This document shows positions 3,457 to 64,000 of a stretch of 64,000 nt of DNA, piece after piece. The stretch comes from Cliona cf. orientalis. Taxonomy: Eukaryota > Porifera > Demospongiae > Clionaida > Clionaidae. A program made the translations under genes and the position numbers. Numbering within the stretch: position 1 is the stretch's first letter; each line of letters starts with the position of its first letter. Under the pieces are notes generated by a model that ran no database searches, was not told where the DNA came from, and saw only the letters and a program-made list of their open reading frames with translations. The stretch covers positions 3,348,001 to 3,412,000 of the forward strand of contig OZ005696.1 in NCBI GenBank assembly GCA_963930775.1, read 5' to 3'.

Positions 3457-6400
3457 TCAATCATCTATAAGCAATTCTCGAAGATCAACAGATGAAGAAG
3501 TGACAAACCTATTCTCCTCCAAAGTTATATTTTTTGTATTCTTTTTACTTTTTAGTTTCACTAAATTACGTATCTTGCTCTGTGTATAGGAAACCCACCT
3601 AATTGGGGTAAGCCTCACTTTTATGTGGTAAATGACAATTGCTACAAAGATAAGAAGGGCAGTTCCAGTTGATGTATATGTAATTGGTGTAAGAGAGCCA
3701 CCTGAAGCTATTTGGTAGTGAGCTACTGAGGACAACATACCCAGATTAAGAAAAAAGATAATCTCAATTAGATTAAGCCACCACTGTCTATACACACCTC
3801 TTATTATGGAATTGTAGCCACATAGAACTAGTGCTGTTAGAGATATTGCTAAGAGATTAACCATAGGATCACCAAGCAAGTTTAAGGAGAATACCAAGAA
3901 TAGGCAAGCTCTTACGAATAGTAGAAGCCCAGTCCAATAGCGATGCTTGATCTTGTAGGGCCCGGTGTATGCATCAAAGAGAGGGTGCAATTTTACAACC
4001 CACGAAAAAATTTTGTAGTTGGGAAGCTTTTGTAGCAATTGCACAAAGAGGAGCATTGCCGTATAGGGCAGGGAGATGACAGTTAAAAGCAAGAATGCAA
4101 CTACAAACAAGTAAATGTGCTTTCCTTTAAGATATTCCACATTGCTGTCATAGAGCCAGACCCACCTCCTGTGACCGTTTGGATAGACCAGTTCCGTTGA
4201 ACTGAAAATGGTGATAATGATGCGTAGGAGTTTGGCATAAGAGAGAAGAAACAGTGTTGCCAAAACTTGAACAGCGTTGCTACCACACAGCTTTGATACT
4301 CGAGTGGAGTAATGGCTAGCTACAATAATTACTATGACAATGAACCAAATGTATAGAGGAAAGAGAAACTGTAACCATGTTACTGATAGGCCATCAAAGT
4401 TATCGTAAAAACAACTTTCAATACCTAGATCTAGGTTCAGCCATGCGATAAAGGTGCTAAGAAACGAGTGTGACGTTTGGTATGGGAAGAATGTTGCACT
4501 GTTAGCTCTTACAATATTGGCATAGAATATCAGTCCATTGATGGTGCCAATGGACACAGTAATGTTGAGTATCATTAAGCCAACTACGAGAGCCACTCCT
4601 GCTAATGCCATCAGAGGAATTATCACAACTAGCCAATATTTTTCACAGTGCTTGCATCTTGATGTTCCCAGCACTCTACTGTAGCCAGACTGACAGGCAC
4701 CGCACAGAATACCAGAGCGCTTGAATGCACACTGTTCATCGGGAGAGGTCAGATTGAGCTCACTGTAGCCTTTAGTTTGCTTACAATAATCAAAGGGGCA
4801 ATGATCATGTACAATGACCCCTGAGTTCTGAGACAAAGCAAGGTGGCTGAATGTTGCATTGATCCACTTTGGGCTTTCTCTGAGAATCTTGAATGTGGTC
4901 AAATTGCATGTAATACCGTGTGTGAGAAGAATTTGTTGGCACTGACATTTTTTCAAATTTGTATCAAGATAGAATCCAAGAGAACAATTTTTCAGGGTAA
5001 TACTGATTGAGATATCAGTATCAATATTCTTGTCATGCTGTAGCGCAATAAAATTAATAGTAGACGCAACTGTTAATTTTAATGTTTCCATTTTATCATT
5101 CGATTGCACAGTATACTCAAGATTCGTACATTGACTTCCAACGTTTTGAGTGTACTGTAACCTTCCCAGCTTGGCGGTTGTTTGCCCTAAGTAGTTAGCT
5201 GATACTCTTGATGGTACAACTCCATACATCTGACCTACTGCTACTATTTCTATAGAGAACGTTTCACCAGGGATCAATTCAACACTGTGGACACTTCTAG
5301 TGCAAGTTGGTAATGATTTTGAGCATGGACACAATTTGATTGGATCGGAGGACACTACTGAAAGATCTGTATCCTGTTGACCTTCAAAATTGAATGCGCT
5401 CTGTGATTGATGGATCCATCCGCCATAGATTGCACTGCCAGCTTGACCAGCTCTATTATTGATGAAGTAAAAGGACAGAGTTCTACCTACAGTGAACGTC
5501 TCATATGTATCATCTCCTAGGTAGACACCTTTGGTGATGTAATCAGCGTCTACTACAAATATAGCCCCACCTTCTCTTCTTGCTTGATTGTCTTCGAAGA
5601 TTAGTACAGCCATGCCATGGGCAACTAGCTTCGATTTCTTCTGAAATAGAATTGCTCCACCTCTCCGACCGGAGTTGTTTGAGAATAGCCACCTTGAGTC
5701 TCCTTCAAATGAAACGTTTGATTTCTCAAGTACCATGCCTCCACATTTTCGCCCAATATTGTTTGCAATTACTACTGTGGAAAAGTTATTGACTTGAATG
5801 ACAGTACCAACAATATAGAAGGGCCAATCTTCTGGATATGGAAATAACTGTTGGCTGGCATTGAGCAACAGGGAACTATTGGCGTGGAATATTACCGATC
5901 TTATGTAAAAGAATAGAAGCTGTCCTCTATTTCTTTGAAGCGTCAACTGACCTTGAATGCTAAGATGCCGACATTTTGTAATGCACAGTGCACCATCACT
6001 ATCTTCAATATTTACATTGTGCAATGTTACATGACCTATGTTTACTATGGTCAGTGGATCTTGAGCATATCTTATTGATATGTTTGTCATGATAAGCTTG
6101 AAATTTACATTTGATCTCCAAAGTGGCCCTATTTGCATTCGTGAATTGTTTAGGTATACATTGTTTACTGTAATGCTTCCAAAACTTTTGTCTACTTGTG
6201 AGAAATTCCTTGGTTCGATGATCAATCCTGGTATACGACGATATCCATACAGTGAATAGTGCACTGATTCAAAATATTGTGTATTGCATTCCAGACCATT
6301 GATGTGTATGATTGTTGTATGCATGTTATGGTAAATATCACAAAATCCACTGGAGAATATGTCCCTTGGAAGCACGTGAATAGTGATATTTGTCAGTGAT

Positions 6401-7161
6401 ACTTCAGTGTAGCCTAGTGTCTGATTTAGTACCATGGTTATCCCAGGATTAGTAACTCCTGGAAAAATGTGATTTGATTTACTAACGTAATAACCTGAAA
6501 AGGATTGTAAATTCTCGATCATTAATGTTTTATTTTTAACGAAAGTTTTATTCTCAGAATGTGTATTGAAAATGTATAAGTTTACTTGATTGTAATGGAA
6601 TGTTGTATTATTCAAAACTAGCATCTGGCCCAAATTTTCAATATACAATGCTATGCCAGTGCCATTCTTTATGGACAAATTTTCTATCATTACATTATCT
6701 GAGCATGAAATGAACAATGTGAAGTAATCCATTACACCCATTTGCCTTACCCCACAGCTTTCAAACGTGATACCATAAATTGTGAGATTCGAAACGTTGC
6801 TGAAAGCAAATCCTATATTATGTTTGGTCGCATTACAATTCACTGTTGATGCTCCAAGTTTCAAATCTTTAGCTCTCAGCTCAACAGTCGTTGTGTTCAC
6901 TATCTTAATGACACCATCTTTTGTACCTCTGTACGTGTGAACACCTGGCAGTAAAATAATGGTGATGTCAGATACATTATCTTCAACCAAACTCATAGTA
7001 GTCAGGGAAGTAAGCGTGTAACAGGGCTCCTGCATAGAACTGCACTCTCTGACTGATGTTGACTCGGCATTTGGTGTGAGATAAATAATCCTTTGTGACT
7101 GAACTGAACATAAGAGCACAGCTAAATTATAATATAGCAAATGAAACACTAGCCTGGCCAT
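3457..7161 (-). CDS. Secreted beta-helix (PMP-like repeat) multi-span membrane protein, paralog 1
   Basis: A single uninterrupted exon encodes 1234 residues. Residues 1-22 form a signal peptide. Roughly residues 60-620 form repetitive, Asn-rich beta-solenoid sequence with PMP-type FxxN and GGAI pairs (FSNNSGRRGGAI, FEDNQARREGGAI, FINNRAGQAGSAI). A Cys-rich linker follows: CSLGFYL near 728, CPFDYC, then CAFKRSGILCGACQSGYS near 808 and CKHCEKYW. About eight hydrophobic spans occupy 840-1180, and the tail ends in DLRELLIDD. Landmarks shared with two other genes in this window include NGLIFYANIVRAN, LLSYAKLL, WLYDSNVEYLKGKHI and RYWTGLLL. The ectodomain should face outside. The role is unknown; adhesion or ligand sensing is inference. 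A GTAAGT donor on the minus strand near 7285 could close an upstream untranslated exon. No frame damage was seen. Confidence 0.85.
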   Translation of the reverse strand: MARLVFHLLYYNLAVLLCSVQSQRIIYLTPNAESTSVRECSSMQEPCYTLTSLTTMSLVEDNVSDITIILLPGVHTYRGTKDGVIKIVNTTTVELRAKDLKLGASTVNCNATKHNIGFAFSNVSNLTIYGITFESCGVRQMGVMDYFTLFISCSDNVMIENLSIKNGTGIALYIENLGQMLVLNNTTFHYNQVNLYIFNTHSENKTFVKNKTLMIENLQSFSGYYVSKSNHIFPGVTNPGITMVLNQTLGYTEVSLTNITIHVLPRDIFSSGFCDIYHNMHTTIIHINGLECNTQYFESVHYSLYGYRRIPGLIIEPRNFSQVDKSFGSITVNNVYLNNSRMQIGPLWRSNVNFKLIMTNISIRYAQDPLTIVNIGHVTLHNVNIEDSDGALCITKCRHLSIQGQLTLQRNRGQLLFFYIRSVIFHANSSLLLNASQQLFPYPEDWPFYIVGTVIQVNNFSTVVIANNIGRKCGGMVLEKSNVSFEGDSRWLFSNNSGRRGGAILFQKKSKLVAHGMAVLIFEDNQARREGGAIFVVDADYITKGVYLGDDTYETFTVGRTLSFYFINNRAGQAGSAIYGGWIHQSQSAFNFEGQQDTDLSVVSSDPIKLCPCSKSLPTCTRSVHSVELIPGETFSIEIVAVGQMYGVVPSRVSANYLGQTTAKLGRLQYTQNVGSQCTNLEYTVQSNDKMETLKLTVASTINFIALQHDKNIDTDISISITLKNCSLGFYLDTNLKKCQCQQILLTHGITCNLTTFKILRESPKWINATFSHLALSQNSGVIVHDHCPFDYCKQTKGYSELNLTSPDEQCAFKRSGILCGACQSGYSRVLGTSRCKHCEKYWLVVIIPLMALAGVALVVGLMILNITVSIGTINGLIFYANIVRANSATFFPYQTSHSFLSTFIAWLNLDLGIESCFYDNFDGLSVTWLQFLFPLYIWFIVIVIIVASHYSTRVSKLCGSNAVQVLATLFLLSYAKLLRIIITIFSSTELVYPNGHRRWVWLYDSNVEYLKGKHIYLFVVAFLLLTVISLPYTAMLLFVQLLQKLPNYKIFSWVVKLHPLFDAYTGPYKIKHRYWTGLLLFVRACLFLVFSLNLLGDPMVNLLAISLTALVLCGYNSIIRGVYRQWWLNLIEIIFFLNLGMLSSVAHYQIASGGSLTPITYTSTGTALLIFVAIVIYHIKVRLTPIRWVSYTQSKIRNLVKLKSKKNTKNITLEENRFVTSSSVDLRELLIDD

Positions 7162-7797: not shown

Positions 7798-7844
7798 AGT
7801 CTGCCCAGCCCCTCCTAGGCCGATCCTAGCCTATTATAATATGC

Positions 7845-7898: not shown

Positions 7899-8071
7899 AT
7901 TATATGCAAAAGGGAGGGTCCAAATATCACGTGACAGTACGTGGGCGGAACCGCATATTAACTCGAAAAGCTTAAAGCCAGGGAAGAGCTGTCCACCTAC
8001 CCTCGTCTTTATCCATTCCCGAATTCGCAGTGCCGGTGATATCATCAGAGTCAAGCCTGAAGCTCAGGACG

Positions 8072-10225
8072 ATGAGCACTCGAGCTCGAAAGACCTTCTC
8101 GACATCATCTCTCAGCGATTTTTGTCTTTGTAAACTGGTCGAAGAACTCGATCACTACTCGCCAGAGGCGCTGAGCCTTCTTCCACCCGTTCAACGAAAG
8201 AAGCTGTTACTCCTTTGTCCAGTTGTTTCCATCTGTCACCTCGAGCGGACCTGCGCCTTTGACGATATCGATTCCGACACATTCTGGGATGACCTTCGCA
8301 AAAGCCAAAGCAGTAGGCTGGGAGGTTTTCGTGGTTATGACTTTCATGCACTACTGACGGTCTCCGAGTATTCTTCAAATCATGAAGAGTTTTCATCGAG
8401 TCGTGAAAAATACTTCACATTTCTGACGACAATGATCTTCAGTGGTGACCGCTTCTCTGCCATGGTGTTTACGGATGGCTTGTAGATGACCGCGACTTCT
8501 ACGAGGGTTGGTCTCCACCACCTGAGCAACGGAGTTGCCCTGATGACGTTGTGAACGATCTTGTCACATATCGAAAGCCAAAAGCAATAACCGTAAGAGA
8601 GAGTAAAGGTTGTGTCACTCGATATGCTGAAGACGACAATGATTTCTATTACCCACTTCCTTCCCGTGATGTATTTGGTAAGCAGCATGATAAGCTTTAT
8701 GAATATGCTACCCAAGGCCAGTATGTTCACTCTCGGTATTCGCACTACACTTCGAAGGAGAATCACTACCGCCTCTCCGATGATGACGCAGTGTCGTTGA
8801 TCATGAACGAATGCCACTACTATCCCAAGAAGCTGTTCCTTCATGAGTATGAGCATATGCATTGGAGGTGGAGCCGTGGTGATCTGACACGCCTACTGAC
8901 ACAGTTTTTCTGTAAGCTAGAGTCACTTAGTTTACAGTTTAGGCAAGCAAAAGATATCGATGGCTATGTAGATAGGGGTGATTGTTCCAAGGAAGCTTTG
9001 GAGCTGGTATTGAGCTGTTGCTTTAGCAGCCCTGTGCTTAGCTCGCTGGACATTCTTGATCCAGTTTTAGACGATACATCCAGCAAAGTTTTATCTTCTA
9101 TGCTTGCAACTATGCCCTGTCCATCTCTAAAGAAGCTTGACATGTTCATCTGCGTACGTTATAGTGGTGAAGTGCGTTGTTTGGAAGCTTTAGCTAAGAT
9201 CATAGCTTCTCATGGCCAACTCACTGAGATAAGTGTGCGGGTTGATGAAGGGGCGAAAGTAAATCCCAGTGCCTTCTCTTATTTGTACACTTCTTTGATT
9301 GGCTTTGTCCAGAGGCAGGAATTTTCGAAGCTTACTCTTAAGGGTCAAGTACCCATGTCTTTATAATTGAAACTACTGCTTGATGCCTTCCTCAAGACAC
9401 CTTGTAGCCAGCCTCAGGATTTACAGCTTAAACATCTAAAACCAGCTCATAATGAACCAGCCTCGACCACCCATAATATGAATGTGCCGGTAGGTGACAG
9501 AAGAGTACCTATTGGAGCTCTAGAATATAAATCCCTCCTTTTTTATGAATATTGCAACATAACTGTGGATTTTTGCAATTGGTTGTTTTCAAACCAGCCT
9601 CTTGTTCTCAAAGCCTACAACTTTGATGCTAGCATAGGTAGTCTTGGGAAATATGGCAGATTTGAACCGTCTGAGACAGCTTTACCTGTACATCTTTTGT
9701 CTGAAAATGCTCTGTTTCAGGCTCGGGAATTATCGTTGCCAATATTTGATAATTTTCCCAATCAAGCTCTTCAACATCTTTTCCAGCGCCAGCAACTGAC
9801 ACGCTTAACACTTCAACCTACAGAACCACCAGTGAAGGATATATTTAGTAGACGTAAAGAAGTTCCTAAATCATGCAACATCGATGCTATCACTGAGATT
9901 CTGTCCTATCAAAAGGAGCAGCCCGTTGAGCTTACAATATACAGGGAATATTTCAACTATGTATCCATCGAACCATCAACCGATGAGGATCAATTTGGAG
10001 ATGCCCTTTTTTCTCTAAACAATTTTGAGTCTTTTCGTTTCAGATCTCAATGGTATGGAAGCAAGAGGATACCGGCTACCTTGATACGCTGTACAACAGC
10101 TGGCTAAAGCATGGACGTAAAAAATTGAAGTTATTTCAATGGGAAAATTTGTGTATCAGTTTTCTATGACTGACTAGCTAACTAGAAAATTAGATGAAAT
10201 GGGACTTGTAATAACTACTCAGTAA
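8072..10225 (+). pseudogene. LRR/F-box-like gene, copy 1 (broken)
   Basis: Closely similar along its whole length to the intact copy at 13452-15689. I see three lesions: a 4-base insertion (about 8460-8463) shortly after the GDRFS codons; a CAA-to-TAA stop at 9364-9366; and a one-base deletion near 10025 that puts the last 60 codons out of frame. A further substitution near 10174 makes another stop (TAG) in the original frame. The reading start is the ATG at 8072, which matches copy 3; the frame upstream has no ATG. It may still be transcribed, because the upstream leader is preserved. Confidence 0.85.
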
Positions 10226-10573
10226 TTTTGTGTTGTGGCATTTATTAGTGAATCTTAGGAATGTACTCTATCATAGCAACTGCGTATGTAGTATGTAGTG
10301 TAATACGAGACTTCCGTTTCAATGTGTTTACTCTTGTTCATACCGAATTCAATAATTAAAATTACAAGGGATACCCCGCTTGGATCGGCACATGCACCGT
10401 AATAGTGCCCACGTGCATAATCATCGCTGCCATGCCATACTTAATTGGAGGAAAGAGGGAGTGGCTAGTGAGATCCATAGTATAGTGGAAGGAAAGAAAG
10501 TTTCTGGGCCCGCCCAGCCTCGTCTTATTATAGTACCGCAGCTGGTGGCAACAGTTTAATATCACTCAGGAGG
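10226..10573. other. Spacer between LRR gene copies 1 and 2
   Basis: No gene is seen. Unlike the leaders of copies 1 and 3, the sequence immediately before copy 2 does not align with them, so the second unit is 5'-truncated relative to the others or its leader has been replaced. Confidence 0.5.
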
Positions 10574-12726
10574 ATGAGCACTAGCACTCGAAGCACCTTC
10601 TCGACTTCATCTCTTGGCGATCTTTGTCTTTGTAAACTGATCGAAGAACTCGATCACTACTCACCAGAGGCGCTGAGCTTTCTTCTACCCGTTCAACGAA
10701 AGAAGCTGCTACTCCTTTGTCCCGTCGTCTCCATCTGCCATCTCGAGCAGACCTGTGCCTTTGACGATATCGATTCCGACACATTCTGGGATGACCTTCG
10801 CAAAAACCAGAGCAGTAGGCTTGTAGGAGGAGGAGGTTATGACTTTCATGCAGAGGAAGTACTCGAATATTCATCAAAACATGAAGAGTTTCATCGAGTC
10901 GTGAAAAATATTTCACATTTCTGACGACAATGATCTTCAGTGGCGACCGCTTCTCTGGTGTTTATGGATGGTTTGTAGATGATCGAGATTTCTACGAAGG
11001 TGGTTGTCCACCACCTGATCAATGGGACTGTCCTGACGATATTGTGAATGATCTTATCGCGTATCGAAAGCCAAAAATAGTAAACGTGGTAGTAGAAAAG
11101 ATCGATGCAGATCATAACGATTCAGATGCTGATGATAACAGTGATTTCTTTGATGGCAATAATGACTCGAGTTTCTATTACCCACTTCCTTCCCGTGATG
11201 TGTTTGGTAAGCATCATGATTAGCTTTATGAATATGCTACCAAAGGCCAGTATGTTCACTCTCAGTATTTGCACTACATTTCGAAGGAGAATCACTACCG
11301 CCTCTCCAATGATGATGCAGTGTCGTTGATCATGAACGAATGCTACTACTATCCTAAGATTCTGTTTCTTCACGAGTATGAGCATATGCATTGGAGGTGG
11401 AGCCATGGTGACCTGACACGCCTACTGACACAGTTTTTCTGTAAGCTAGAATCACTTAGTTTACAGTTTAGGAAATCGAAAGATATCGATGACTACGTAG
11501 AAATTTGTGGTGATTGTTCCAAGGAAGCTTTGGAGCTGGTATTGAGCTGTTGCTTTAGCAGCCCTGTGCTTAGCTCGCTGGACATTCTTGATCCAGCTTC
11601 AGGCGAAACATCCAGCAAAGCTTTATCTTCGACGCTTGTAACTAAGCCCTGTCCATCTCTGAAGAGGCTTGACATATGTTTCTGCATACATTATATGGAA
11701 ACCTTGGCTAAGATCATAACTTTTCATGGCCAACTCACTGAGATAAGTGAGCGGGTAGATGAAAATCCCAGTGACTTCTCTTGTTTGTACACTTCTTTGA
11801 TTGGCTTTGTCCAGAGGCAGGAATTTTCAAAGCTTACTCTTGTGGGTCAAGTACCTATGTCTTTACAATTGAAACTACTGCTTGATGCCTTCCTCAAGAC
11901 ACCTTGTAGCCAGCCTCAGGATTTACACCTTAAACATCTAAAACCAGCTCGTAATGAATTGGCCTTGACCACCCATAATATGAATGTGCCTGTAGGTGAC
12001 AGAAGAGTACCTATTGGAGCTCTAGAATATAATCCTCCTTTTATATGAATATTGCAACATAACTGTGGATATTTGCGATTGGTTGTTTTCACATGAGCCT
12101 CTTGTTCTCAAAGCCTTCGACTTTGATGCTAGCATAGGTAGTCTTGGGGAATATGGCAGATTTGAACCATCTGAGACAGCTTTACCTGTACATCTTTTGT
12201 CTGAAAATGCTCTGTTTCAGACTCGGGAATTATCGTTGCCAATATTTGATAATTTTCCCAATCAAGCTCTTCAACTGGCATCTTTTCCAGCGCCAGCAAC
12301 TGACACACTTAACACTTCGACCTACCAAACCACCTGTGAAGGATATATTTAATAGACATGAAGAAGTTTCCAAACCATGCAACATCGATGCTATCACTGA
12401 GATCCTGTCCTATCAAAAGGAGCAGCTGGTTGAGCTTACGATATAGCTACAGGCAATATTTTTACTATGTATCCATCGAACCGTCGACCGATATGGAACG
12501 ATTTGGAGATGCCCATTTTTCTTTAAACAATTTCGAAGTCTTTTTGTTTCAGATCTCAATGGTATGGAAGCAAGAGGATACCAGCTACCTTGATACGCTG
12601 TACAACAGCTGGCTAAAGCATGGACGTAAAAAGTTGAAGTCATTTCAAATGGGAATGTTTGAGTATCGGTTTTCTATGACTGACGAGCTTGCTAAAGAAA
12701 TGGGACTCGTAATAACTACTTGTTAA
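10574..12726 (+). pseudogene. LRR/F-box-like gene, copy 2 (broken)
   Basis: This is the same family as copies 1 and 3 but more diverged. Lesions relative to copy 3 are: a one-base deletion near 10890 (GAGTTTC for GAGTTTTC); a GAG-to-TAG stop at 11221-11223; a two-base deletion near 12033; and 4-base insertions at 12276-12279 (TGGC) and about 12445-12448 (GCTA). It also has an acidic Asp/Asn-rich insert near 11110-11165 that the other copies lack. It ends VITTC and stop, so the shorter C-terminus shared with copy 1 is probably ancestral. It is not expected to make a full-length protein. Confidence 0.85.
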
Positions 12727-12840
12727 TTTTTGTGTTGGAATAATTATGATGTAATATCAGCGCCTATGATTCATCAAGTATTATACTTAATGTGGCTACT
12801 CAGTTCATAGATACAGACTTAGCTATAGTATTTTCCATAG

Positions 12841-13451
12841 CATTGCTCACTCCTTCATTTAAATACACTGCCAGGACTTTTGTAGTCTACCATTCATCTT
12901 TTATTCATTTATGTGAAAACAGCCATTTGGCGCACGCGCACATAATATGACGTAAAGCGCATATGCTGTATAGTATGTGTACATGACATTGTACCTTATC
13001 TCGCACACCACACCCCCCAATTGGAGTGAAAGAGGGTGTACATGTGGCTAGCGAGACTATGTAGGGCTGTACTGTGTACTGTCATGACAAATTTGGATCC
13101 CCCCCCCCCCCTTTTTGTTCCCCCCAGTCCATATACGTGGATCCCCAGCCCTATTATATTTCTGAAATAGCTAGCTATATGGACCCCCATGCATGTTATC
13201 AACTAGCTATAATTCAGAAGGGTCAAGGGCTGGATTCTGGGTATAAGTATGAATGGTTAGCTAGTCTGAGCTGCCCAGCCCCTCCTACGCAAAAGGGAGG
13301 GTCCAAATATCACGTGACAGTACGTGGGCGGAACCACATAATTTAAAGCCAGGGAAGAGCCGTCCTACCCTCGTCTTTATCGAGGTCTTTATCCATTCCC
13401 GAATTCGCAGTGCCGGTGATATCATCAGAGTCAAGCCTGAAGCTCAGGACG
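12841..13451. repeat. Intervening duplicated segment between copies 2 and 3
   Basis: The first part (about 12841-13010) is the 3' flank of a unit and matches 15851-16019, including CATTTGGCGCACGCGCAC. The rest (12996-13451) is the 5' leader that matches the leader of copy 1. The junction shows unequal, head-to-tail duplication of a unit of about 5.4 kb or of parts of it. Confidence 0.75.
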
Positions 13452-15689: not shown

Positions 15690-16812
15690 TTTATCAGCAC
15701 TGACTCATAGATACCACCTCTCAGGCTTGATTTATTAGCACTCTTGGATGGTAAAAAGTGCTGAAATCTATGTTTAATGCAATTTGACAGTACTTTTGCT
15801 CAAGTTTAATATAGCTGCTTTCATAGATACAGACTTCTAGTATTTTCCATAGCATTGCTCATTCCTTTATAGCTAACTAGTACACTACCAGGACTTTTGT
15901 AGTCCACGATTCATCCTCTATGTGAAAACAGCCATTTGGCGCACGCGCACACATGATGTAAAGCACATGTGCTGTATAATATATGTACATGACATTGTAC
16001 CTTATCACGGTCCATGACAAAACCAACCATATTGCGCTGGATATCAATCTGAGATACAGGCCTATTTAGTTGCCCAAGGTGATAATTATCATTTTCACCT
16101 TTTGGCATAGTCTAGATCGATAGAGGAATCATTCCTCTACACAAAAATCTGCTTCGTAGCTTCTAGAACGCTATACTTACTGAGTTATGGCTCGAAGAAT
16201 TCGGCCGTGTAGCTAACATTGATCATCCATGATACGGAGCCGTTGCCATAGTTGCAGGTAGGCAAGCACGGCAGCTGCACAGAAAAAACTCTCCAGACAC
16301 TTCTTTCTTTGATTTTGTGCTAATGATCTATAGACACGCTTTTCCTTTCATTCTTTTCCATCGAAACGCCAGCCGCTGCTTTCTTTTGGCCGCCATCTGG
16401 CTCTTTGACTTAGTGGTCGTGGCCACGTGTTTTGCATAAACGGCGAGTATACGGACTTCCGCGTGCAACGTACGTGGCAATGTTTCATTGAGCTTGCTGC
16501 ACATTTTTATCACGGGCGATCCGGGTACATTTTGGCTCATATCTCCATGACTACACGGGCTAGAGACTTCAAATTTGCAGGAGCAATAGTTCAAAGGTTG
16601 TACTTGGTAATGGTACGTGGCCTTAACTAGAAATCAGTTGTCAGCGCGATATGGTTGGTTTAGTCATGGAAGGTCACATATAATTTGCAGCAAGGAGTAG
16701 AGTAAGTTAAAGGCATCTGTATGTTATAAACTGAACGCCTTTGAGACGTGTAGCTATATACCTTAATAATTGAATTGCACTAGTAGCTATAATTATTACT
16801 AATATTGTATTT
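15690..16812. other. 3' flank of the LRR array and spacer
   Basis: 15669-15765 contains a short tandem repeat of ACCACCTCTCAGGCTTGATTTA. 15851-16019 is the duplicated 3' flank. From 16020 to 16800 I see no supportable gene; a minus-strand run of about 22 codons beginning MAAKRKQR (near 16402) is too short to call. Confidence 0.5.
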
Positions 16813-17532
16813 GTGAAGTCATTCCCACTCCTACTTTTAGAACAAAAAATACCAAAATACATCCCACTTATTATAAAAGATCTGGCTAGCTTCAGATTAG
16901 GTTTACATAAAGCGCCAAAAATCACTAAAACCGATAATACAGCCAAAATTTTAATTATAAAGGTTCCTTTCCACAACAAAGGTTTAGAAATGATTAATTT
17001 GTCCCAAATATTACATAGTAAACCAGTAAAAGAATCTATCCCTAGCTTCATTCAAAACCAGACTCCCCCTACTATTAGCTACTCTTATACAAAAACTATA
17101 GCAGGAAAAATTTTTAATTTCAAACAAAGTATCAAAGATCTAGATTTTGAGACAGGCACAAAAAATTTTAGCTGCGACTGCCACGTGTCAGATTTTAAAT
17201 ATGAACCTGCGGGGCACGTAGTTACCGGTAATCTAGGCATAGTGGAAAATAGAAAATTAAGAAAACTAATTAGTAAAGGCCCATCATATAGAGAACAAAA
17301 TAACATTAATTGGGATACCAACCTAAAAATCATCAAAAAAGCCGTTAGGGCATACAAAATAAAGTGGGCTAAGAAGGATAGAGTAGATAGCCGTACTTTA
17401 GACGAATGGGAATGTAGAATTATAAAAACAGTTCAGGCTAGGATAGACAGACTTAGGAAGAAAGGTAAAAACCAGCGGAAAAAACATGTTTTGTCGGATT
17501 TAGAATGCAAAAAATATTTAGAGTACTTTTAG
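16813..17532 (+). pseudogene. Retroelement N-terminal part
   Basis: 239 codons with HKAPKITKTDN, a CDCHVSDFKYEPAGHVVTGNL segment containing a Cys-x-Cys-x-His pattern, SKGPSYRE and a basic helix before the break. Reading stops at a TAG just after a short T run (about 17525-17530). One missing T there explains the shift into the RT frame. Confidence 0.75.
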
Positions 17533-19915: not shown

Positions 19916-19933
19916 TAAATTATTATGCATTTA

Positions 19934-26739: not shown

Positions 26740-45906
<19,167 letters not shown>

Positions 45907-48690: not shown

Positions 48691-48705
48691 TTCTGGACTC
48701 CTAGC

Positions 48706-52700: not shown

Positions 52701-54793
52701 GACTCCACAGTGCAATACTCCAATACTACAGAGCAATTGCCATGTCGGCAGGATTTCTTCCGTAGTGAAACATCTGCTGTCTGTATCCCAAGCTGTGCCA
52801 CATGGAGCGAGTATTCACTTTCTGAAGTGATTCTTACTGATGTCTTGATCATTTTATCGGCAGTCATTGGACTCGTAACAGGATCAGCGGTCTTGATATT
52901 GGCCATTGTACGATTCAAACGAATGTAAGCATCAGTATCATAATACCAGTAGTATTATTGTGTGGATTGCATGTGAATAAGTATAATTTTTTCTTTTGTA
53001 GGTGTGCATTTCCAGCTATGTTTGTGGTATACTTAACAATAGACTTCATGATTCTTGGTATGTTTGGAATAGACATCCAAGGCATAGCTATCTATAATGT
53101 AATAGCCACTGTACTGTAGGACGGGTTTTAATTGTGTAGTTTAATGATTGCGTTTTAGTCAAATCAGGCCAAATTGCAAATCCAATAATTGCGATGGACG
53201 ACCCCGTACCGTACGTGCACGTTTATTATTATTTGCAAATCTATTAATTGCGAAACATAGAAAATCTTGCAATTCGCAATTAATAGATACTCGCAATTAA
53301 AACCCAACCTACGGTATTAGCTCTCTATATACCTCTTAATCTTTGGCTGTCCTGAGAGAGTCCATAACAATTAACTTTTGTATTATTGAACAGATTTCTT
53401 TCTCATCATTTCCCACTTTGATCGTCCTTCTCTGTATTGCTCCTCACCTGACCTGCTGCAGAGTATCCTGAAACCAACCCCATTCTGTGTGATAACAGGT
53501 AACTGTATACTTTACATAATAATTATAGCTGCATGCATTTGCACATGGGTCACGAGTGTTGATATGATAATAATTATAATTCGTTCAGGTATGGTTCTCT
53601 CGTACTTACTACTTCAGATTGCATTTTGGTGGTTAAGCCATGCGACAGTTATTCTGTGGAAGCTTCAATTTCCATTCCATGCTAGATCCTTCGAGAATTC
53701 GGAGAAAATGAAATACGTCCACATTATCAGTGTTGTGATTGGCCTATTGCTCCCACTAGTCTCACCAATAACCTCAATGGTAGACTTTGCAGTGGATCTG
53801 AGTTCCAGTGAAGTACTGCAGAGTCAAAACATTTCATTTATGTCTGGGGGACTTGGTTACGGTCTTATTCGTTTCCCTTCGATTCTCTGCTCTGCTATCG
53901 ATAGATATGCTCTATACTATTCAAACGTACTGCCGATAAACCTTATGGTCATTGTTGGGATCACTGAATTGATACTGGTGTTCAGGATTATTCACAAGGT
54001 ATGTACATGTTCACTATTAATAGTAAACTGACGTCAGCCTATTCTCATTGGCGGCCGCTCACGCCTGAAGTACGCTAGATTTATCTCAAGACATGCATGG
54101 AGAATAAGAACATTCTACATATTATTATTATTATAATATGTATCTATTTAACATTGTAATATTATTATTTGATCCTTTGTCTTCTGTAACCAATTGTAAA
54201 CCTATTAATTATAAACTTTGTCTATCTCAGTGGCAAACTATAGAGCTCACATGACTTCGCATGCACTAACTTAGAGTCAAGTTTCCGATTGAATTATGTA
54301 CCCATCATGCATGCAGCCTTGATGCAGGCTAGCTATAGCTTTGAAGATTACTGTTGCACATTTTTTATGTCTTTCCATGCCTCTGTAGCAATATGGATTG
54401 TTCAGAGCAAGATCAAGCAAGACCAAACATCCACTAGGGCTTGGAATGGCTGAGAGAAAAATCTTAATTGTCTTATGCTACTATGTTGTGGTTGCTTCAT
54501 TCTCCCTCACACAATACACTGTGGTGATCCGAAACCTCGATGCATTTAACATGCAGCTTGAGAAGTACTTCATCTGTGAACTGAATGGGCATGATCCAAG
54601 CAATCCATGTGACAGGAATAGATTTCGCCAGCTTTCTAATCCTGGCTTAACTGCATTGACATTCATTCTTCTGGGACTCTTTCCTCTATTTAATCTAATT
54701 TATGCTCTGAACTATGAGGAACTGCTGAAGAGGTGCAGGGCTTGTTTCAGGGGCAAAAAGCTAAGTTCTAGAATGACTATGTCAAGTATTTAG
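49742..54793 (+). CDS. Seven-transmembrane receptor-like protein with Cys-rich ectodomain (6 exons)
   Basis: Exons 49742-49951, 52677-52924, 53002-53057, 53394-53498, 53589-53998 and 54389-54793 join with consistent phases (0, 2, 1, 1, 0) to give 477 residues. Residues 1-37 are charged and Ser-rich. A hydrophobic segment at about 38-62 looks like a signal anchor. A short Cys-rich ectodomain follows (CEEC, LPCRQDFF, VCIPSCATW), then seven TM helices, the third with AFWWLSHATVILW. The tail is short and basic (CRACFRGKKL). The overall plan resembles a class F or adhesion-like 7TM receptor without a recognisable CRD or GAIN domain; I do not recognise the exact family. The first intron is 2.7 kb, the others 77-390 bases. 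Signalling through G proteins is inference. Confidence 0.7.
50998..51292. repeat. Dispersed repeat B, copy 2
   Basis: Same orientation counterpart of 19621-19915, lying in intron 1 of the 7TM-like gene. Confidence 0.7.
51972..52258. mobile_element. 287-bp MITE with nested palindromes in intron 1
   Basis: The ends CACTGCAAAAACAAAA and TTTTGTTTTTACAGTG are inverted with one change. Inside, a GGTTA..CTAACC arm and several copies of TGAATGCAACTCAGGTAACCT in both orientations make a multi-branched foldback. Confidence 0.85.
53112..53316. mobile_element. 205-bp TA-flanked MITE in intron 3
   Basis: TACTGTAGGACGGGTTTTAATTG at the left and CAATTAAAACCCAACCTACGGTA at the right are inverted ends with three mismatches, bounded by TA. 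The interior repeats AATTGCGA/TCGCAATT. It makes up most of the 336-base intron. Confidence 0.8.
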
Positions 54794-55054: not shown

Positions 55055-58000
55055 CTACAAACATTTGTAAGTGCCTCTATACTCAAAATCTTCATCCACA
55101 ATTCGATTATGAGCGATATCAATAGTTGAATCTGATTGTTCTTTGCGAGCACTGATAACCTGTACTAACTCCCTGGCTTTTGAAGTAATAATATTTTGAT
55201 TTTTACTGCCACATGCATGCTTGAATACTTGCTTACATAAGATTATGAGTAGGTACATGCACATCACCATCATCGGTAAACAAATGAGCACTAGCTGAAC
55301 TGCAGCAGCTGAATCTAGTATGGCTTTGTACTGTGATGTCTGGTTCTGGCTATTGTGATAATTGAAAAATAGGAGGCTGTTAATTAGAATCAGGTTGGAA
55401 AAAAGTAGAGTATCTATGATGTTGTGTGCTCTCTTTACGTAAGGCTGACATATGGTGTGTAGGGTAAGGATAAACACTAGCACACCACCGATAGAAGTAT
55501 AATGGATACTATATAATTCCGTATTGGAGGAAACCAATAGAAATGACCACCGATAAAGAAAGTAAAGACCAGCAAAGAACCTGAGCCTATCTTTGAAGCA
55601 ACCTTGGAAGGAGTCAAGCAGAGGCTTCAGGCTGGCAATGGGCAATATTGCACAGATGAGCTTAACACACTTTTTGTCTTCAAGACCAAGATAATCTAGT
55701 AGCTTATTTAGAAGGGGATATACCAACAATAGAATTGGAGGGAGAGCACCAATGGTAAGAAGGCAAAATAATGCTGGAAGAGCATAGGGCAAATGTTCCT
55801 TGCTAAAATATTCTATTTCCCCATTGTACCACACCCTTGGATGCACTTTAAACCCACTGCCATTTTCCGGATGGATGTATAAGCGAAGCAGAAGGCGTAG
55901 AGACACTTTAACACACTGAGCATAGCTGATCACAAGGAAACTGGAAATTCCGTGTATGATTGAAGCTCGGACAGTGGTTATTCGACAGCATTTGCCCAGA
56001 TATCTTCCTCCACATCTGTTCATTATCCAAATAACCGCTATAATCAGTAGTATGGCATAGATGATTGTGACATACTTAATAGCAATCATATCCAATGCTG
56101 AAGCACCCTTCCATAAACAGAATGGAAAGAGTCCTATACCTAAGAGATCAAGGTTGAAGAATCCATAGAGCACTAATGCTACCTTTCCAATTCCTGAAAT
56201 TGGTATGGGTATTATTCCACTGGCACGCATATCTAGCGAATCAATAAGTTGACTGTAAAGAATGAATCCATTAACAGCCCCAGAGGTGAAACTGAGATTG
56301 AAACCTAGTACAACAATGAAGGTGACCGTGACAGGAATGAGTTCCGAGAGGATATAAAAGAGCCAGCCTAACTTGCATCCAACAGGTTCTGCTGGTCTAC
56401 ACAAGAAGCCTGGTGAATGAAAGTGCACTGTATAGTTACTAGTACACTTGCCACATGCTATGCCAGTCCTCGTTTCCCCACAGAGAACTTGGTTCAATTC
56501 AACAGAGTTTCGAGGTAAGGAAATTTCAGATCTTGATGGAACAGTTGAACAAAAAGTGCATACACTGGTCACTAGTTTGGAGTCAATGAAGCCAGTCCAG
56601 AACCCAGGTAATAGATAGCTGTAAAATCCATCTTCGTTGCATCTAAGCAAGCCAATATAATTATGTGCATTACAAACGCACTTCAATTCGTTATTGGACT
56701 TAAATCCCGGAGGACACTCAAGCAGTGTTATGGCTAATTTTAAGTAGCTATGCCTTGGGGACAAGACCTCTAAATGGAGAGTTGCGTTTTCACCCGGCTC
56801 ACCTGTAAGCTGTAGTTCATCTCCAATGAATGTGGAAAAGGCAGAATCAAGCTGAACGCCACTATCATTCACTTTGTCAATAATTGCCACTCTAAATGAT
56901 GGCTTAGTCCTTTGTCCCAAATCATCAGTTGTCAGAATATCATGCTCGTAGTATTCACCTGGGATTATCATTAATGGTGTGGACTTGTTGAAGCTGAGAG
57001 TAGCTCCATCCGTTGCAAGCTGTGGCTGTAGTCTTGTATCGTTATCAAATTTTATTCCCCGTTCGTTAAATATCTCAGAAATATTGACAGTTAGATAATC
57101 AAAATGATTGTTAGTGCCATATCTAATTGTCTGGCAGGGGAAAAGGGATGTGGCATAAATAGCATGACCAGAAGTGCCATCTTTAGCTTTGTTTCCAACG
57201 AAAGTTATGTTAGTATCCCGCAATATTGAAATGTTAGCAGTATCCTTATCAGCATATTGAATAAAACAACTCTTAGAGGCAAATTCAGTTATGTCAGTTA
57301 ATGACACATAAAGTGCACCACCCAGAAATTGTGCATGGTTATTGAAAAATCCATAGCTATTGTTTGATCCTACCATTATTTTAGCTACTCCGATTAGAGC
57401 CACAGCACCTCCCTGGAGACCGGTATTGTTGATGAAATCTACACTGCTGTTTTGAAAGTCCATGACTCCATTGACAGCATAGAGGGCAGTACCCCAATTG
57501 TTTTGGAACAAATTGTAACCTTGAAAGTTTATGTCAGACAAACTAACATAAACTGTGCCAACTCCAGGGACTGTTTGGTTCCACTGGGTCCAATTCTTTT
57601 TTGCAATAACACTATTATTTAAAAACCGACAATTTCGAAACTCTGGCACAATTGTGTACCCCCTGTACTTCTTCAAGAAGATATCTGGTACCATGACTAG
57701 AGCTGATCCTGCATGCGCTTTATTCTTTTCAAACGTTGAATTTTCAAGTAGCATGGAATTATGACTGTAGTCAGGGTGTTGTTTATCATGATGTGAATAA
57801 TAGTACACACCACCACCAAGTTCAGCACAATTCCCCAAAAAAGTAACATTTCTCAAGATGAAATGGGAGTTAGTTATTCCAGCACCATTACCTGACTCTA
57901 TTCTAAGATACATTCCACCTCCAAACACTGTGTATTTGCTTGGCATGCAACCATTCTGTCTGAATAAGGAATCTGTGACTTTAACCGTGATATTGCTAAT

Positions 58001-58888
58001 ATTGAGGAAATTCTTACGATACATTTGTGCTGACAGTGCACCTCCAATGAATGCCTGATTAGAAGTGAAATTGCAGCTTACAAATGATACGTGAATGTCA
58101 ACTGAACCATCATCAAAGCTCATGTAGACACCTCCACCTTTTCCTTTGTTATCTTGTGCTGACTCTTCTACATCTGTGTAACTCAATTTATAGCGGGAAT
58201 TGCTTGAAGTGTTATTTTCAAAAGTACACTTATCAAACAGAATTATTGTGGGATAAATTGGACTACTGGAAAATTTTATATACACTCCACCGCCTCCAAA
58301 CACTCTATTGTTTGTGCCGTTCCAGTATTTCTGTGGCAAAGCATTCCCTGCAATCAATGCTGATGATATATTCACTGTGCCTCCTGTGTGGTTCAGTATC
58401 ATCAGTCCAATTCCATTACTTTTTTCAATAACTATCTCAGTGAGTTCCACATTGCTACAGTTTAAAATTATCAAGGCCGAAATGTATTTTAGCCTCCGTA
58501 TTTCAGTTCCACATGAGTTGAAGATCAGATTACTTAATTTAATTGAGTCTCCAATGTGACTTAGCTGAATTCCAGCACTAGAATTTGTACTTTCCATACA
58601 AGTAATAGTTGTTGGATTGCCATTAATGATCAATGACTTAAAACCTTCAAATTTTGTGGAAGTATTCAAGTGCAACAGTGGAATATTGATATCAATGTGC
58701 ACATCAGTTTGTTGATGCCCATTAACTTTACCTGCAATTGTCTTTAATGACTCACTTTGACAATCTTCTTCTGATTGATCATGAGGGTCACAGGTTAACG
58801 TTATTGATAGTGATTGATTGAAACTTTCTGCAAACACTACACTGGTGAGAAATATTGCACTAGTGATGATCATCAAGTGGTTAGCCAT
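55055..58888 (-). CDS. Secreted beta-helix (PMP-like repeat) multi-span membrane protein, paralog 2
   Basis: A single exon of 1277 residues. Residues 1-20 form a signal peptide. Roughly 60-680 form a beta-solenoid with many FxxN and GGA/GGG pairs (FENNTSS..GGGVYM, FTSNQAFIGGAL, FLGNCAELGGGVYY, FINNTGLQGGAV, FFNNHAQFLGGAL). A Cys-rich linker starts at CPPGFKSNNELKCVC (near 726) and reaches CGETRTGIACGKCTSNY. About eight membrane spans follow from about 839. The shared membrane landmarks are less exact than between paralogs 1 and 3: GAVNGFILYSQLI, FLVISYAQCVKV, IEYFSKEHLPY and DRLRFFAGLY. The linker is about 40 residues longer than in paralog 1. Start is the first ATG; upstream there is no continuing frame. 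It is divergent from paralog 1 but collinear, so the duplication is old. Confidence 0.85.
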   Translation of the reverse strand: MANHLMIITSAIFLTSVVFAESFNQSLSITLTCDPHDQSEEDCQSESLKTIAGKVNGHQQTDVHIDINIPLLHLNTSTKFEGFKSLIINGNPTTITCMESTNSSAGIQLSHIGDSIKLSNLIFNSCGTEIRRLKYISALIILNCSNVELTEIVIEKSNGIGLMILNHTGGTVNISSALIAGNALPQKYWNGTNNRVFGGGGVYIKFSSSPIYPTIILFDKCTFENNTSSNSRYKLSYTDVEESAQDNKGKGGGVYMSFDDGSVDIHVSFVSCNFTSNQAFIGGALSAQMYRKNFLNISNITVKVTDSLFRQNGCMPSKYTVFGGGMYLRIESGNGAGITNSHFILRNVTFLGNCAELGGGVYYYSHHDKQHPDYSHNSMLLENSTFEKNKAHAGSALVMVPDIFLKKYRGYTIVPEFRNCRFLNNSVIAKKNWTQWNQTVPGVGTVYVSLSDINFQGYNLFQNNWGTALYAVNGVMDFQNSSVDFINNTGLQGGAVALIGVAKIMVGSNNSYGFFNNHAQFLGGALYVSLTDITEFASKSCFIQYADKDTANISILRDTNITFVGNKAKDGTSGHAIYATSLFPCQTIRYGTNNHFDYLTVNISEIFNERGIKFDNDTRLQPQLATDGATLSFNKSTPLMIIPGEYYEHDILTTDDLGQRTKPSFRVAIIDKVNDSGVQLDSAFSTFIGDELQLTGEPGENATLHLEVLSPRHSYLKLAITLLECPPGFKSNNELKCVCNAHNYIGLLRCNEDGFYSYLLPGFWTGFIDSKLVTSVCTFCSTVPSRSEISLPRNSVELNQVLCGETRTGIACGKCTSNYTVHFHSPGFLCRPAEPVGCKLGWLFYILSELIPVTVTFIVVLGFNLSFTSGAVNGFILYSQLIDSLDMRASGIIPIPISGIGKVALVLYGFFNLDLLGIGLFPFCLWKGASALDMIAIKYVTIIYAILLIIAVIWIMNRCGGRYLGKCCRITTVRASIIHGISSFLVISYAQCVKVSLRLLLRLYIHPENGSGFKVHPRVWYNGEIEYFSKEHLPYALPALFCLLTIGALPPILLLVYPLLNKLLDYLGLEDKKCVKLICAILPIASLKPLLDSFQGCFKDRLRFFAGLYFLYRWSFLLVSSNTELYSIHYTSIGGVLVFILTLHTICQPYVKRAHNIIDTLLFSNLILINSLLFFNYHNSQNQTSQYKAILDSAAAVQLVLICLPMMVMCMYLLIILCKQVFKHACGSKNQNIITSKARELVQVISARKEQSDSTIDIAHNRIVDEDFEYRGTYKCL

Positions 58889-60080: not shown

Positions 60081-60086
60081 TATACC

Positions 60087-61084: not shown

Positions 61085-64000
61085 TCAGTCTGTGTTGGAC
61101 CCAGGGGGATTATATTGTTGACGCTCCTCCACTTGAATTGGGATACTGCTGCATGATTCCATCGGCTTTTCCTTGAGCAATGGTACACCAGAGTCATTAG
61201 TGTTGGTAGAGGAATCAATGACGTCTAGTAGTTCTCTAAATCCCCGAGTATCGTCATCACCATCATATGGCAAGCTTAAGCTTAAGCAACGATGTCCATT
61301 TTGATTATTTCTAGCAAAAAGTGCATGAGCCATTCTAAAGGGCCTTAATATCTTCTTGAAACCCGAAAAGATGCTGGTGTAAGTATATATGTGGTAAAAG
61401 ATGATGAGCAGCATTGCAATGAAGGCAGCGAGGACTGACATGTAAGCAACAGTTTCTTGGCTGAAATCTGGGCTATTGAGGGAATATTCAGTGAATATAC
61501 AAACGAAAAGAATATTTAAGAAGAAGAAGGTCTCAAACATATTGACTAAAGATTTCCTGTATACTGAAGTTTGGAAGAACACTCTAAGGAGAAGGATGCA
61601 AACTACAGTGAAAATGATCACATTAAGAGCAAGGTGAGGATCGTTTGAAACATTTGCAGCAGCAACAAGATATAAGATAACACGAGTAATCAGCAACAGT
61701 CCAGTCCAGTAGCGATACTTGGGCGTGAAAGGCGCATGGTGAGTCTCTATGAATGTTTGCAGTTTCTGATTCCTTGTCCACTTAAACACTTTCCAGTCTG
61801 GAAGGCAGAGAAGCCACTGCCATGAGAAGAGTAGAGCAGTGTAGACCAGTCCAAAAGCGAGAATGAGAACAGCTGCAATGAATAAGGGTATGTGCTTTTC
61901 AGAGAGGTATTTTACAGTTGCATCAGGGAGCCACAGTAATACTCGGGTGCCATCGGGATAGGTAAGTGTTCCAACAGATAGCGACTCAAAGCAGATTTCA
62001 AGGATTTTTGAATAGGATAAAAGAATCAATGTAGCTAGAGTTGCCACTGGGTCCCTCTTTCCAATGAGATTTGAAAACTTCATGGAATGTGAACTGATTA
62101 TTATAATTGAAATCACAAGGAGAATGACATAGGCAGGAAAAGCCAATTGTAGCCACATTTTAGCATTAGCGTCCATTCCTGGAAAGTAGCAAGTATCAAT
62201 TCCAAGCCCGAGGTTGAGCCATGAAACAAATGTAGTAATTGCATTAGCCTCTTGAAAAGGAAGTAGAATGCTCCTGTTTGCATGCACAATATTGACATAG
62301 AATATCAGCCCATTTAATGCTCCAACTGCAACTGTCATGTTGAGTAGCAAAAGGAGCGCTACTAGTGCTATACCTGCTAGAATTGCAGCTAAAGTAATGA
62401 CTATTAGTATAAAAGGCCAGTATCTAGCACACTGAAGGCAGCGGGAGCTACCAAGAGAGAGGCTTAGACCAGGTTTACAATGTCCACACAACAGAGATGA
62501 TCGATTGAATGCACACTGCACATCAGTTCCATTTGACTGACTAAGAATTATTGGCACAGATCGTGAGTTACAGTAGTCTAAAGGGCAATTTTTGAAGACT
62601 ACATAGCCACTTATGTTGGTGTCATTGATGTAAGAAATCCAAGCTCTGGATTGAGATTTCTTGATAATAAATCCAGTATTGCTATCACAATATTCCATGT
62701 ATTGAACAATATTGATGTGGCAATCACATGAGCAATTTATTTCAGTCTTTCCGGAGACTTGAAAGCCAATTGGACAGCTACAGGGAAGAAAGTGTACTTT
62801 GATCCGTCTCCTGGATAGATCTGCATCCTTGCAGGGACCATCAATTGCGTATAGAGTCAATTCTTCATCTTCATGTGGAGAGACAATGTTAAAAGTCAGG
62901 GTAGTACATTTTCCACCTATTTCTGCTGTAAGTTGGCCTTCAGAAAGGCCGCTTTGAGTAGATTTAAAGGGCAGTTTGGATAGTTGCTCTAACTGGTTGT
63001 TCTAGTTGATCAACAGCAACAAGAGAAACATTAAATGGTGCTCCTTTTTTCACCTTAACGTGAGCTTGAAGTTGATGGAAGCATTTGTATTCACTTGCAT
63101 TACAAAGACACACTTTGACTGGGCGGGATGATATTGTGGCAAAGAAGTCCGCCAGTCCATCACCATCTGGGAGTAGAGAAATTCCCTTTAAGTAAGCAAC
63201 TCCACCATAAGGATCTAGATCTTTCGAATAAACTTCAGCAAACTGACTCGCAACACACCTATCCAACATTCCTCCATAGAGTGTGGATCCTGAAATATTT
63301 GCTTGGTTGTGAGAGAAATATAAATATTGTGTCTTCACATCAATGCGGTTTTGACTATGGAGAGCTAGAATTTGAAAGAAACACTCAGCTTTTGCAGTCG
63401 AATTAGGAGTGCACATGCTGCCCGAGTTGGAGTCATCATCCACATACACCGCACCTCCATACGTGTATGCACTATTGGCTGTGAAAGTAATAATTTTATC
63501 GACCGTGTTTTTAGTATTATATAAATACTTCAGTATAATGAGTTCTGCATTGGCTTCCAAAGAAAGTCCACCCCCCATATCTGCTAAATTTTTGTTGAAG
63601 TATAACGGTTCCCTTGCTCCAGTAGGACATGAACAGTGATTATCTGAGTCCCATGCCTCAATAGATGAGCTAATGGCATGGAGTCCACCTCCTTTATGCT
63701 CTGCGTAGTTACTACTAAAACCAAGAGTGCTTTTGTGTAGGCAATTCAGCTCACTGTTTGAGAGATATCCTCCTCCTCCATTTCTACTTGCCTTATTGTG
63801 TGCTATAATTAGATAACCGTGCACATAGAGTTTGCTCATTATTGATAGCAGTCCTCCACCATTTTCAGCATGATTGTACTGAATAGTACACTTTCCTTTA
63901 AAATGTGCATTGCTATGAAAAAGAGTGATAGCTCCTCCCTCCTGGAAAATAGCTGTAGAACTATTGGTCCAGCTGATTTCAGTTTCTGGATGGTTACTTA
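61085..64000 (-). CDS. Beta-helix (PMP-like repeat) multi-span membrane protein, paralog 3 (partial, frame-broken)
   Basis: The gene enters at the right edge already in frame (residues before the Met at 63839 are open to the window end), so the signal peptide lies outside. The upstream part carries FxxN/GG pairs (YNHAENGGGLL, FSSNYAEHKGGGL, FNKNLADMGGGL, FTANSAYTYGGAV). It stops at a TAA at 62964-62966, and coding continues one base out of frame from about 62965 with KSTQSGLSEGQL. The downstream part has the Cys linker (CSCPIGFQ, CPLDYC, CAFNRSSLLCGHCKPGLS, CLQCARYW), the multi-span domain (NGLIFYVNIVHAN, LLSYSKILE, YLSEKHIP, RYWTGLLL) and a long acidic tail with GFRELLDVID. It is closer to paralog 1 than to paralog 2. 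The break is a one-base indel, a sequence error, or less likely a programmed shift. Confidence 0.8.

Follow-up and report, generated by a model that had tools for sequence, protein, structure and literature searches.

What kind of protein joins repeats like those of chlamydial polymorphic membrane proteins (PMPs) to a large multi-span membrane domain in a sponge, and how many such proteins does one sponge genome encode? The question arises from a 64-kb stretch of Cliona cf. orientalis DNA (C8:3348001-3412000 in a 216.8-Mb assembly of 149 contigs; hereafter, the window), in which three genes of this type, numbered 1 to 3 by position, lie on the minus strand. An earlier analysis made from the letters of the window (the sequence-only reading) had described them as a three-member family. 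That count proved far too small, as core searches, a pattern count, and a sample of pattern sites place hundreds of copies in this genome. Taken together, the comparisons reported here indicate that a single membrane module is found at hundreds of loci, joined to N-terminal regions of at least two types, and we put the probability that the family constitutes a lineage-expanded repertoire of putative recognition receptors at roughly 0.5. We prefer this interpretation to the rivals considered below because it explains the size of the family, the long frames, their clustering, the constant membrane part, the freer ectodomain, and the conserved tail.

The members fall into three classes. Class I proteins (gene 1 among them) consist of a PMP-repeat ectodomain, a neck, the membrane module, and a motif-bearing tail. 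Class II, to which gene 2 belongs, follows the same plan with a different tail; of five class II tails read, L036, L038, and L039 carry the motif E-L-P-[HY]-R-L, and gene 2 and L040 do not. Class III proteins are about 600 amino acids (aa) long and carry the same module behind a short Cys-rich N terminus that replaces the PMP repeats. Such repeats were absent by eye from the four class III proteins read, and the two that were scanned gave no Pfam match. Genes 1 and 2 resemble each other only distantly (24% and 21% in two alignments). Profile comparison with hhalign gave E values of 4.5e-21 between classes I and II (gene 2 not being shared between the profiles), 2.2e-45 between classes III and II, and 7e-21 between classes III and I, versus 0.0014 to 0.68 for nine controls (a POT-like protein divided into halves, another frame of the window, and reversed profiles). 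Another hhalign setting returned smaller E values (1.5e-27 to 4.3e-61); the milder ones are quoted. On these profile comparisons, classes I, II, and III share one homologous membrane module. Class III genes form arrays on C8, C9, C15, and elsewhere, and those at C8:2.16-2.35 Mb and C15:6.35-6.46 Mb are dense and tandem.

Searches of the sponge's own genome establish the scale of the expansion. With gene 1 as the query, all 38 scored places matched at E values of 8e-178 or below (1,916 first-look candidates); with gene 2, all 36 scored places matched (1,822 first-look candidates). Conserved cores of 128 aa from gene 1, 140 aa from gene 2, and 141 aa from class III each retrieved at least 150 matches, with 150/150 scored in every case (1,400, 720, and 1,278 candidates, respectively; two rows of the gene 2 core search represent one place). 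The union of the three core searches comprises at least 423 distinct places, or 513 when 100 listed sites of the motif H-R-Y-W-x-G-L are added. This pattern occurs at 300 sites genome-wide, while its reversed control occurs at none. The gene 1 core search had already retrieved 10 of these 100 sites, and all 20 sites sampled from the other 90 encode the membrane core (E ≤ 4.4e-14). On C1 and C2, for which all pattern sites are listed, the motif is absent from all 15 class II and III places; the two counts can thus be added, and about 570 copies or more (300 + 273) is, by this reasoning, a fair lower bound. The copies are clustered, with 316 of the 513 listed places having a neighbor within 10 kb (median, 6.9 kb), and 100 of the 150 gene 1 core places lie in frames of at least 1,000 aa. 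Some matches of the gene 1, gene 2, and core searches contain stops. Many of the copies appear intronless, as judged on open frames rather than transcripts. An expansion of this repertoire-like kind fits the surface-sensing role that had been proposed and may be regarded as compatible with it.

Close paralogues sampled from the family are under purifying selection, which is strongest in the neck and membrane part. Among 13 close pairs, the ratio of nonsynonymous to synonymous substitution rates (dN/dS) was 0.12 to 0.28 in the membrane part and 0.24 to 0.55 in the ectodomain; the sole value above 1 (1.23) came from a 40-codon tail, and tail values, being from short segments, are scattered. A second set of 35 pairs from five clusters (the survivors of a size filter applied to 43) gave 0.11 to 0.25 for neck plus membrane and 0.20 to 0.65 for the ectodomain, computed on well-aligned codons only, which lowers ectodomain dN. 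Ectodomain dS exceeded neck-plus-membrane dS in 33 of these 35 nonindependent pairs, with a bootstrap interval above 0 in 21. In one cluster, the trees of four gene parts conflict, with support of 0.87 to 0.95 on several of the conflicting groups and down to 0.2 on others. The dS gap and the conflicting trees suggest recombination or conversion, and the membrane half looks homogenized. Flanking sequence was compared for 59 pieces from 30 loci, yielding 159 high-scoring segment pairs within clusters versus 14 between clusters (both counts may include neighboring family members); no flank sequence common to most dispersed copies was found among these pieces.

Within the window, the common plan described by the sequence-only reading is borne out: all three genes are long minus-strand frames in which the Cys motif and the membrane landmarks can be aligned. 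Their features are as follows.

3457..7161, minus strand: gene 1 (P0001, class I), one unbroken 1,234-aa frame
7096..7161, minus strand: gene 1 hydrophobic, signal-peptide-like N terminus, residues 1 to 22 (approximate boundary)
4957..7095, minus strand: gene 1 ectodomain with PMP-type/beta-helix signal, residues 23 to 735 (Chlam_PMP, 2.4e-6; Beta_helix, 1e-4, below cutoff)
4636..4956, minus strand: gene 1 Cys-rich linker with DUF7630-like motif CAFKRSGILCGAC (PF24633, below cutoff)
3628..4635, minus strand: gene 1 conserved membrane module with nine predicted spans, residues 843 to 1178 (hydropathy, charge balance over 17 rows, and alignments)
3460..3627, minus strand: gene 1 predicted cytosolic tail (tail motif copy TSSSVDL at about 3481-3501)
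55055..58888, minus strand: gene 2 (P0002, class II), one unbroken 1,277-aa frame
56744..58828, minus strand: gene 2 PMP-type ectodomain, residues 21 to 715 (repeat count and Chlam_PMP score as given below)
55214..56743, minus strand: gene 2 Cys-rich linker and membrane module, residues 716 to 1225 (profile match to class I)
61085..63001, minus strand: gene 3 open frame with Cys-rich linker, membrane module, and tail (P0003 is the portion starting at 62860)
62964..64000, minus strand: gene 3, C-terminal portion of the PMP-repeat ectodomain (Chlam_PMP; extends past the window)

The ectodomain and membrane part of gene 3 lie in different frames that overlap at 62964-63001, a break that would mean that gene 3 is a pseudogene, that it contains a short intron, or that the assembly is in error. 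Its ectodomain frame (L034) extends to about C8:3413897 and begins with a hydrophobic, signal-peptide-like stretch. Hydrophobic N termini are present in genes 1 and 2, as had been claimed; the signal peptide of gene 3 seemed absent because the window edge cuts off the N terminus, and gene 3 likely has one as well. The landmarks called fixed align in three of three genes but vary in wording: in place of KH(I/L)P, gene 1 has KHIY and gene 2 has EHLP, and gene 2 further reads VISYAQ, NGFILY, and CGETRTGIACGKC.

The ectodomain was described as an adhesin-like solenoid of PMP-type repeats, an assignment that holds, though weakly for gene 1. The Pfam model Chlam_PMP (PF02415) exceeded its cutoff with 27.6 bits in gene 1 and 36.2 bits in gene 3 and fell narrowly short of it in gene 2 (19.8 bits versus a cutoff of 20.6), and the NCBIfam POMP repeat was found in genes 1 and 3. 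The motif GG[AVIGT] occurs 12 times in gene 2 (shuffle mean, 1.9; maximum, 8) and 30 times in the whole ectodomain frame of gene 3, which lies partly beyond the window (shuffle mean, 3.6; maximum, 12). In a long relative, L035, its count is also above all shuffles. In gene 1, it occurs twice, inside the shuffle range (mean, 1.3). Among the three genes, only gene 3 has an [FIL]xxN count above every shuffle. With repeat counts inside the range of shuffles, a solenoid in gene 1 is less secure. In gene 2, gene 3, and L035, the GG motifs are often spaced about 25 to 31 residues apart, which matches expectation for the coils of a beta-helix.

The Cys-rich linker reported between the ectodomain and the membrane part is confirmed by a motif alignable in all three genes. 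It resembles DUF7630 (PF24633), a domain of unknown function whose profile spans only about 32 residues of the family's neck. This model fell below cutoff in gene 1 (E = 4e-4, or 6e-5 on the subdomain) and in gene 2, and gene 3 had no listed match in the Pfam scan. Elsewhere, a DUF7630 match was obtained in 16/21 and 5/6 scanned family rows, and PF24633 scored above its curated cutoff at 32 of 150 scored places in this genome, 13 of which are no more than 2.5 kb from a listed place of the family (class II places among them).

The membrane part was initially thought to have about eight transmembrane spans. Nine spans give a better fit to hydropathy and charge across 17 class I rows, with the N terminus outside and the C terminus inside: K+R prevail over D+E in loops 3, 5, and 7 and at the beginning of the tail, acidic residues prevail in loop 2, and the charges of loops 4 and 8 are nearly balanced. 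The loop between predicted spans 8 and 9 is only about 10 residues long. We offer the nine-span, N-out/C-in topology as a proposal. The judgment that this domain cannot be assigned to a named family was upheld, since neither Pfam nor the PDB provided a credible match. Profile searching for a described receptor or channel family, which the sequence-only reading had named as its test, returned no clear match. The Pfam scans covered the three window genes, 21 family rows (E ≤ 1), and 6 class II rows (E ≤ 10), the 27 rows including 26 distinct ones, and yielded no family to which the membrane part could plausibly belong; implausible weak matches included a zinc-ribbon family in 10 of the 21 rows (best E, 0.0033). 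PDB profile searches gave no match for class I and a single one, to an RNA-binding protein (E = 0.67), for class II. No TRP or polycystin family appeared in the Pfam rows or among PDB profile matches to the class I alignment. Likewise, no seven-transmembrane G-protein-coupled receptor (GPCR) profile and no GPS/GAIN domain were found in Pfam scans of the window genes, the family rows, or two class III proteins. Foldseek with the second of two AlphaFold models returned 44 PDB entries, many of them named as beta-helix proteins and none significant (best E, 0.013; none ≤0.001); these were not used for a fold claim.

The tail element RELL(I/L)D or FRELLD, which had been proposed as common to the two best-preserved tails, was revised on comparison: in gene 3, a longer tail follows FRELLD, which does not clearly correspond to RELLID in gene 1. 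The conserved class I element is instead [TS]x[ST]x[VI]x[LVIM], followed in some members by E-x-L-[LI]. It is present in 27 of 29 class I tails (shuffle mean, 1.4), in 11 of 19 more distant class I tails that had been seen before the pattern was written (shuffle mean, 0.9), and in 14 of 20 from a third, blind set for which the pattern was fixed beforehand (shuffle mean, 0.57; one of the 20 is a short odd frame scored as a miss). None of 2,000 shuffles attains any of these three counts. The related pattern E[PSALC]L[LI] was found in 27/29, 5/19, and 5/20 class I tails. The acidic dileucine [DE]xxxL[LI] occurred in 9/29 (4.4 in shuffles) and, without enrichment, in 1/19 and 1/20, while NPx[YWF] was absent from the sets of 29 and 20 (0/29 and 0/20). 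Matches resembling the immunoreceptor tyrosine-based inhibitory motif (ITIM), [ILVS]xYxx[ILV], numbered 8/29 (above shuffles), 3/19, and 2/20 (not above shuffles). An ITIM reading, prompted by tails that read VTYSEV, was rejected, as the tyrosine is replaced by F, H, Q, S, and other residues.

If the family is a receptor repertoire, the ectodomain would be a beta-helix that binds ligands such as microbial or food glycans or molecules on the surface of other cells. The state of the ectodomain would be relayed inward through the neck and membrane module, and the class I tail motif would dock a cytosolic partner for signaling or sorting. The hundreds of variants would then be retained in the genome to serve as a recognition repertoire, in the manner of chemoreceptor and innate-immune families. 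To our knowledge, few animal families are this large apart from olfactory receptors, nematode chemoreceptors, and innate-immune receptors. The sponge family does display features of expanded repertoires, namely, many clustered, long-frame copies and purifying selection (the latter from five clusters). Chemoreceptors undergo lineage-specific expansions, and several vertebrate groups are intronless, according to the available text of one report (PMC11526382). Vertebrate olfactory and nematode chemoreceptors resemble the present family in lineage-specific growth to hundreds of genes or more; they differ in that the sponge proteins have no seven-transmembrane GPCR match, a large repeat ectodomain, and nine predicted spans.

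Chlamydial Pmp proteins offer a second comparison. Their FxxN and GGA(I,L,V) repeats are predicted to fold into the coils of a beta-helix (PMC11166332). The likeness to the sponge proteins consists of the FxxN/GGA repeats, with PF02415 above cutoff in genes 1 and 3, while the autotransporter barrel has its place taken here by the multi-span module and tail. No autotransporter beta-barrel was matched in the window genes by Pfam or NCBIfam, and their C-terminal part consists of hydrophobic spans. The closest described parallel is eukaryotic: Trichomonas vaginalis has 48 Pmp-like proteins, and trichomonad proteins of this kind likewise combine a PMP-repeat ectodomain, a membrane anchor, and, in many, an endocytic tail motif (PMC6701047). 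They have one span and an NPx[YWF] tail, in contrast to about nine spans, a DUF7630-like neck, another tail motif, and hundreds of copies in the sponge. A prokaryotic or viral origin of the sponge genes was considered and set aside, since IMG/VR contained no relative and bacterial and archaeal genomes gave only a 28-aa chance match (L033), in insensitive searches using two to six short peptide patterns.

Similar uncharacterized proteins presumably occur in sponge and cnidarian databases, and PANTHER family PTHR11319 ("G protein-coupled receptor-related/PmpC-related"), which groups pectin-lyase-fold plus multi-span proteins, is a lead only; its accession appears in no paper of the open-license PMC collection. 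The family may therefore be present in databases yet undescribed in the open literature. No description of it was recognized among the entries listed from the open-license PMC literature, two of the listings giving 15 of 2,609 and 15 of 110 entries. A chromosome-level sponge genome paper (PMC12909245) contains none of the terms "pectin lyase," "beta-helix," and "polymorphic."

Several other explanations deserve consideration. The proteins might be endocytic adhesins whose PMP ectodomain captures particles or microbes, with T-x-S-x-V-x-L (plus E-P-L-L in some members) serving as an uptake or recycling signal and the nine-span part acting mainly as an anchor. Trichomonad Pmp proteins join FxxN/GGA repeats, a membrane anchor, and often endocytic tails, and the members tested increased adhesion, as far as the accessible text of that report goes (PMC6701047); the enrichment of E[PSALC]L[LI] in class I tails points the same way. 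We nevertheless regard this explanation as unlikely, as the standard acidic dileucine is mildly enriched in the first tail set only, NPx[YWF] is missing, the strongly constrained multi-span module would exceed the needs of an anchor, and four class III proteins have neither a long ectodomain nor a long tail. A ligand-gated channel or transporter, in which the module would conduct ions or solutes under ectodomain gating on a TRP- or polycystin-like plan, would account for the large multi-span domain, the Cys-rich neck, and the strongly conserved loops. The Pfam matches of the 27 rows include no channel family, however, the PDB profiles gave no credible match, and the short connection between the last two spans would hardly accommodate the pore helix and filter of a TRP-type channel; the odds thus seem to be well against it.

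Two further readings concern how the copies arose and diverged. Molecules of cell-cell or matrix adhesion or of self-recognition with little signaling, diversified by conversion among neighbors in an allorecognition-like manner, would be in keeping with the excess of ectodomain dS and the conflicting part trees, but the dS gap could also come from another constraint or from alignment error, and we find such a role improbable. Passive or selfish amplification, by which a transposon-borne or retro-amplified gene would have left mostly dead copies, seems least probable. It draws on the seemingly intronless structure, the hundreds of copies, the class I frames below 1,000 aa, and the occasional stops. 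Against it, dN/dS was below 1 in the ectodomain, neck, and membrane part of every tested pair, and flanks are alike mainly inside clusters; a transposon reading finds no support on the same two grounds.

The receptor repertoire itself faces several contrary observations. One-third of the gene 1 core places (50/150) lie in frames below 1,000 aa; many copies may thus be dead or cut. In the four class III proteins read, the PMP repeats are missing and the chain terminates shortly after the last span; neither ectodomain nor tail is thus essential to the module. No 40-codon window in a four-gene comparison had a ratio of nonsynonymous to synonymous differences (pN/pS) above 1 (highest, 0.92), leaving diversifying selection on the family unsupported. 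Six of the 20 blind class I tails are without the motif. The membrane domain has no match to any known signaling family in Pfam or the PDB, span 2 is only weakly hydrophobic (0.89), and an invariant N-x-T sequon falls in a loop that the nine-span topology assigns to the inside. AlphaFold models from alignments of the three window rows were unusable (predicted local distance difference test [pLDDT] scores of 37.4 and 34.6, the latter for the model used with Foldseek). Lastly, tagged trichomonad Pmp proteins localized to internal compartments and not to the plasma membrane (PMC6701047).

A bolder form of the receptor interpretation, which we advance tentatively and with some doubt, is that the proteins form a previously undescribed class of animal surface receptors whose module is an orphan nine-span signaling unit, unrelated to known GPCRs and channels, with more than 500 copies and exchangeable outer domains. 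It would serve as the main recognition repertoire (for microbes, food, or self) of an animal that branched early and has no adaptive immunity; gene conversion would keep the membrane halves similar, and the outer halves would diverge. If the proteins are receptors, they could provide part of the molecular basis for discrimination among symbionts, food, and self by a filter feeder lacking adaptive immunity, and the membrane module would become a new subject for structural and signaling work. The core and the tail motif serve as probes, and hundreds of natural variants allow the mapping of specificity.

Other features of the window and genome were recorded in passing. On a small contig, L061 (C117:249142-249438) encodes a Bcl-xL-like sequence (E = 3.4e-38 versus the PDB, compared with 5.6e-18 for the other Bcl-2 gene compared, L062), possibly reflecting contamination or an unusually conserved gene. 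The presence of Bcl-2 genes and of EGF_CA and fn3 domains is in keeping with an animal genome, and the PDB matches of L061 and L062 do not point to a sponge in particular. A POT/PTR2-like transporter lies in two overlapping frames at 512-2382 on the minus strand, with PTR2 at 2.9e-4 in one of them, below cutoff. The remaining features are on the plus strand. An uncharacterized gene (MSTRARxTFSTSSLSDLCLCKLVEELD...) occurs in three tandem copies at 7976-15689; the first two are broken over several frames, and the third is an open 780-aa frame without a Pfam match. A reverse-transcriptase remnant follows at 16774-18919 in three frames, the middle one matching RVT_1 at 1.7e-6, narrowly below cutoff. 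At 23037-23633, a 199-aa secreted-looking frame has about two near-identical 93-bp (31-aa) tandem repeats and resembles a peptide precursor, with no Pfam family above cutoff. Two hydrophobic frames without a Pfam match adjoin gene 2 at 53390-54793 and are perhaps exons of a multi-span gene. Finally, a probable multi-exon gene at 39115-45747 encodes EGF_CA and fn3 domains, with a hydrophobic stretch towards its end.

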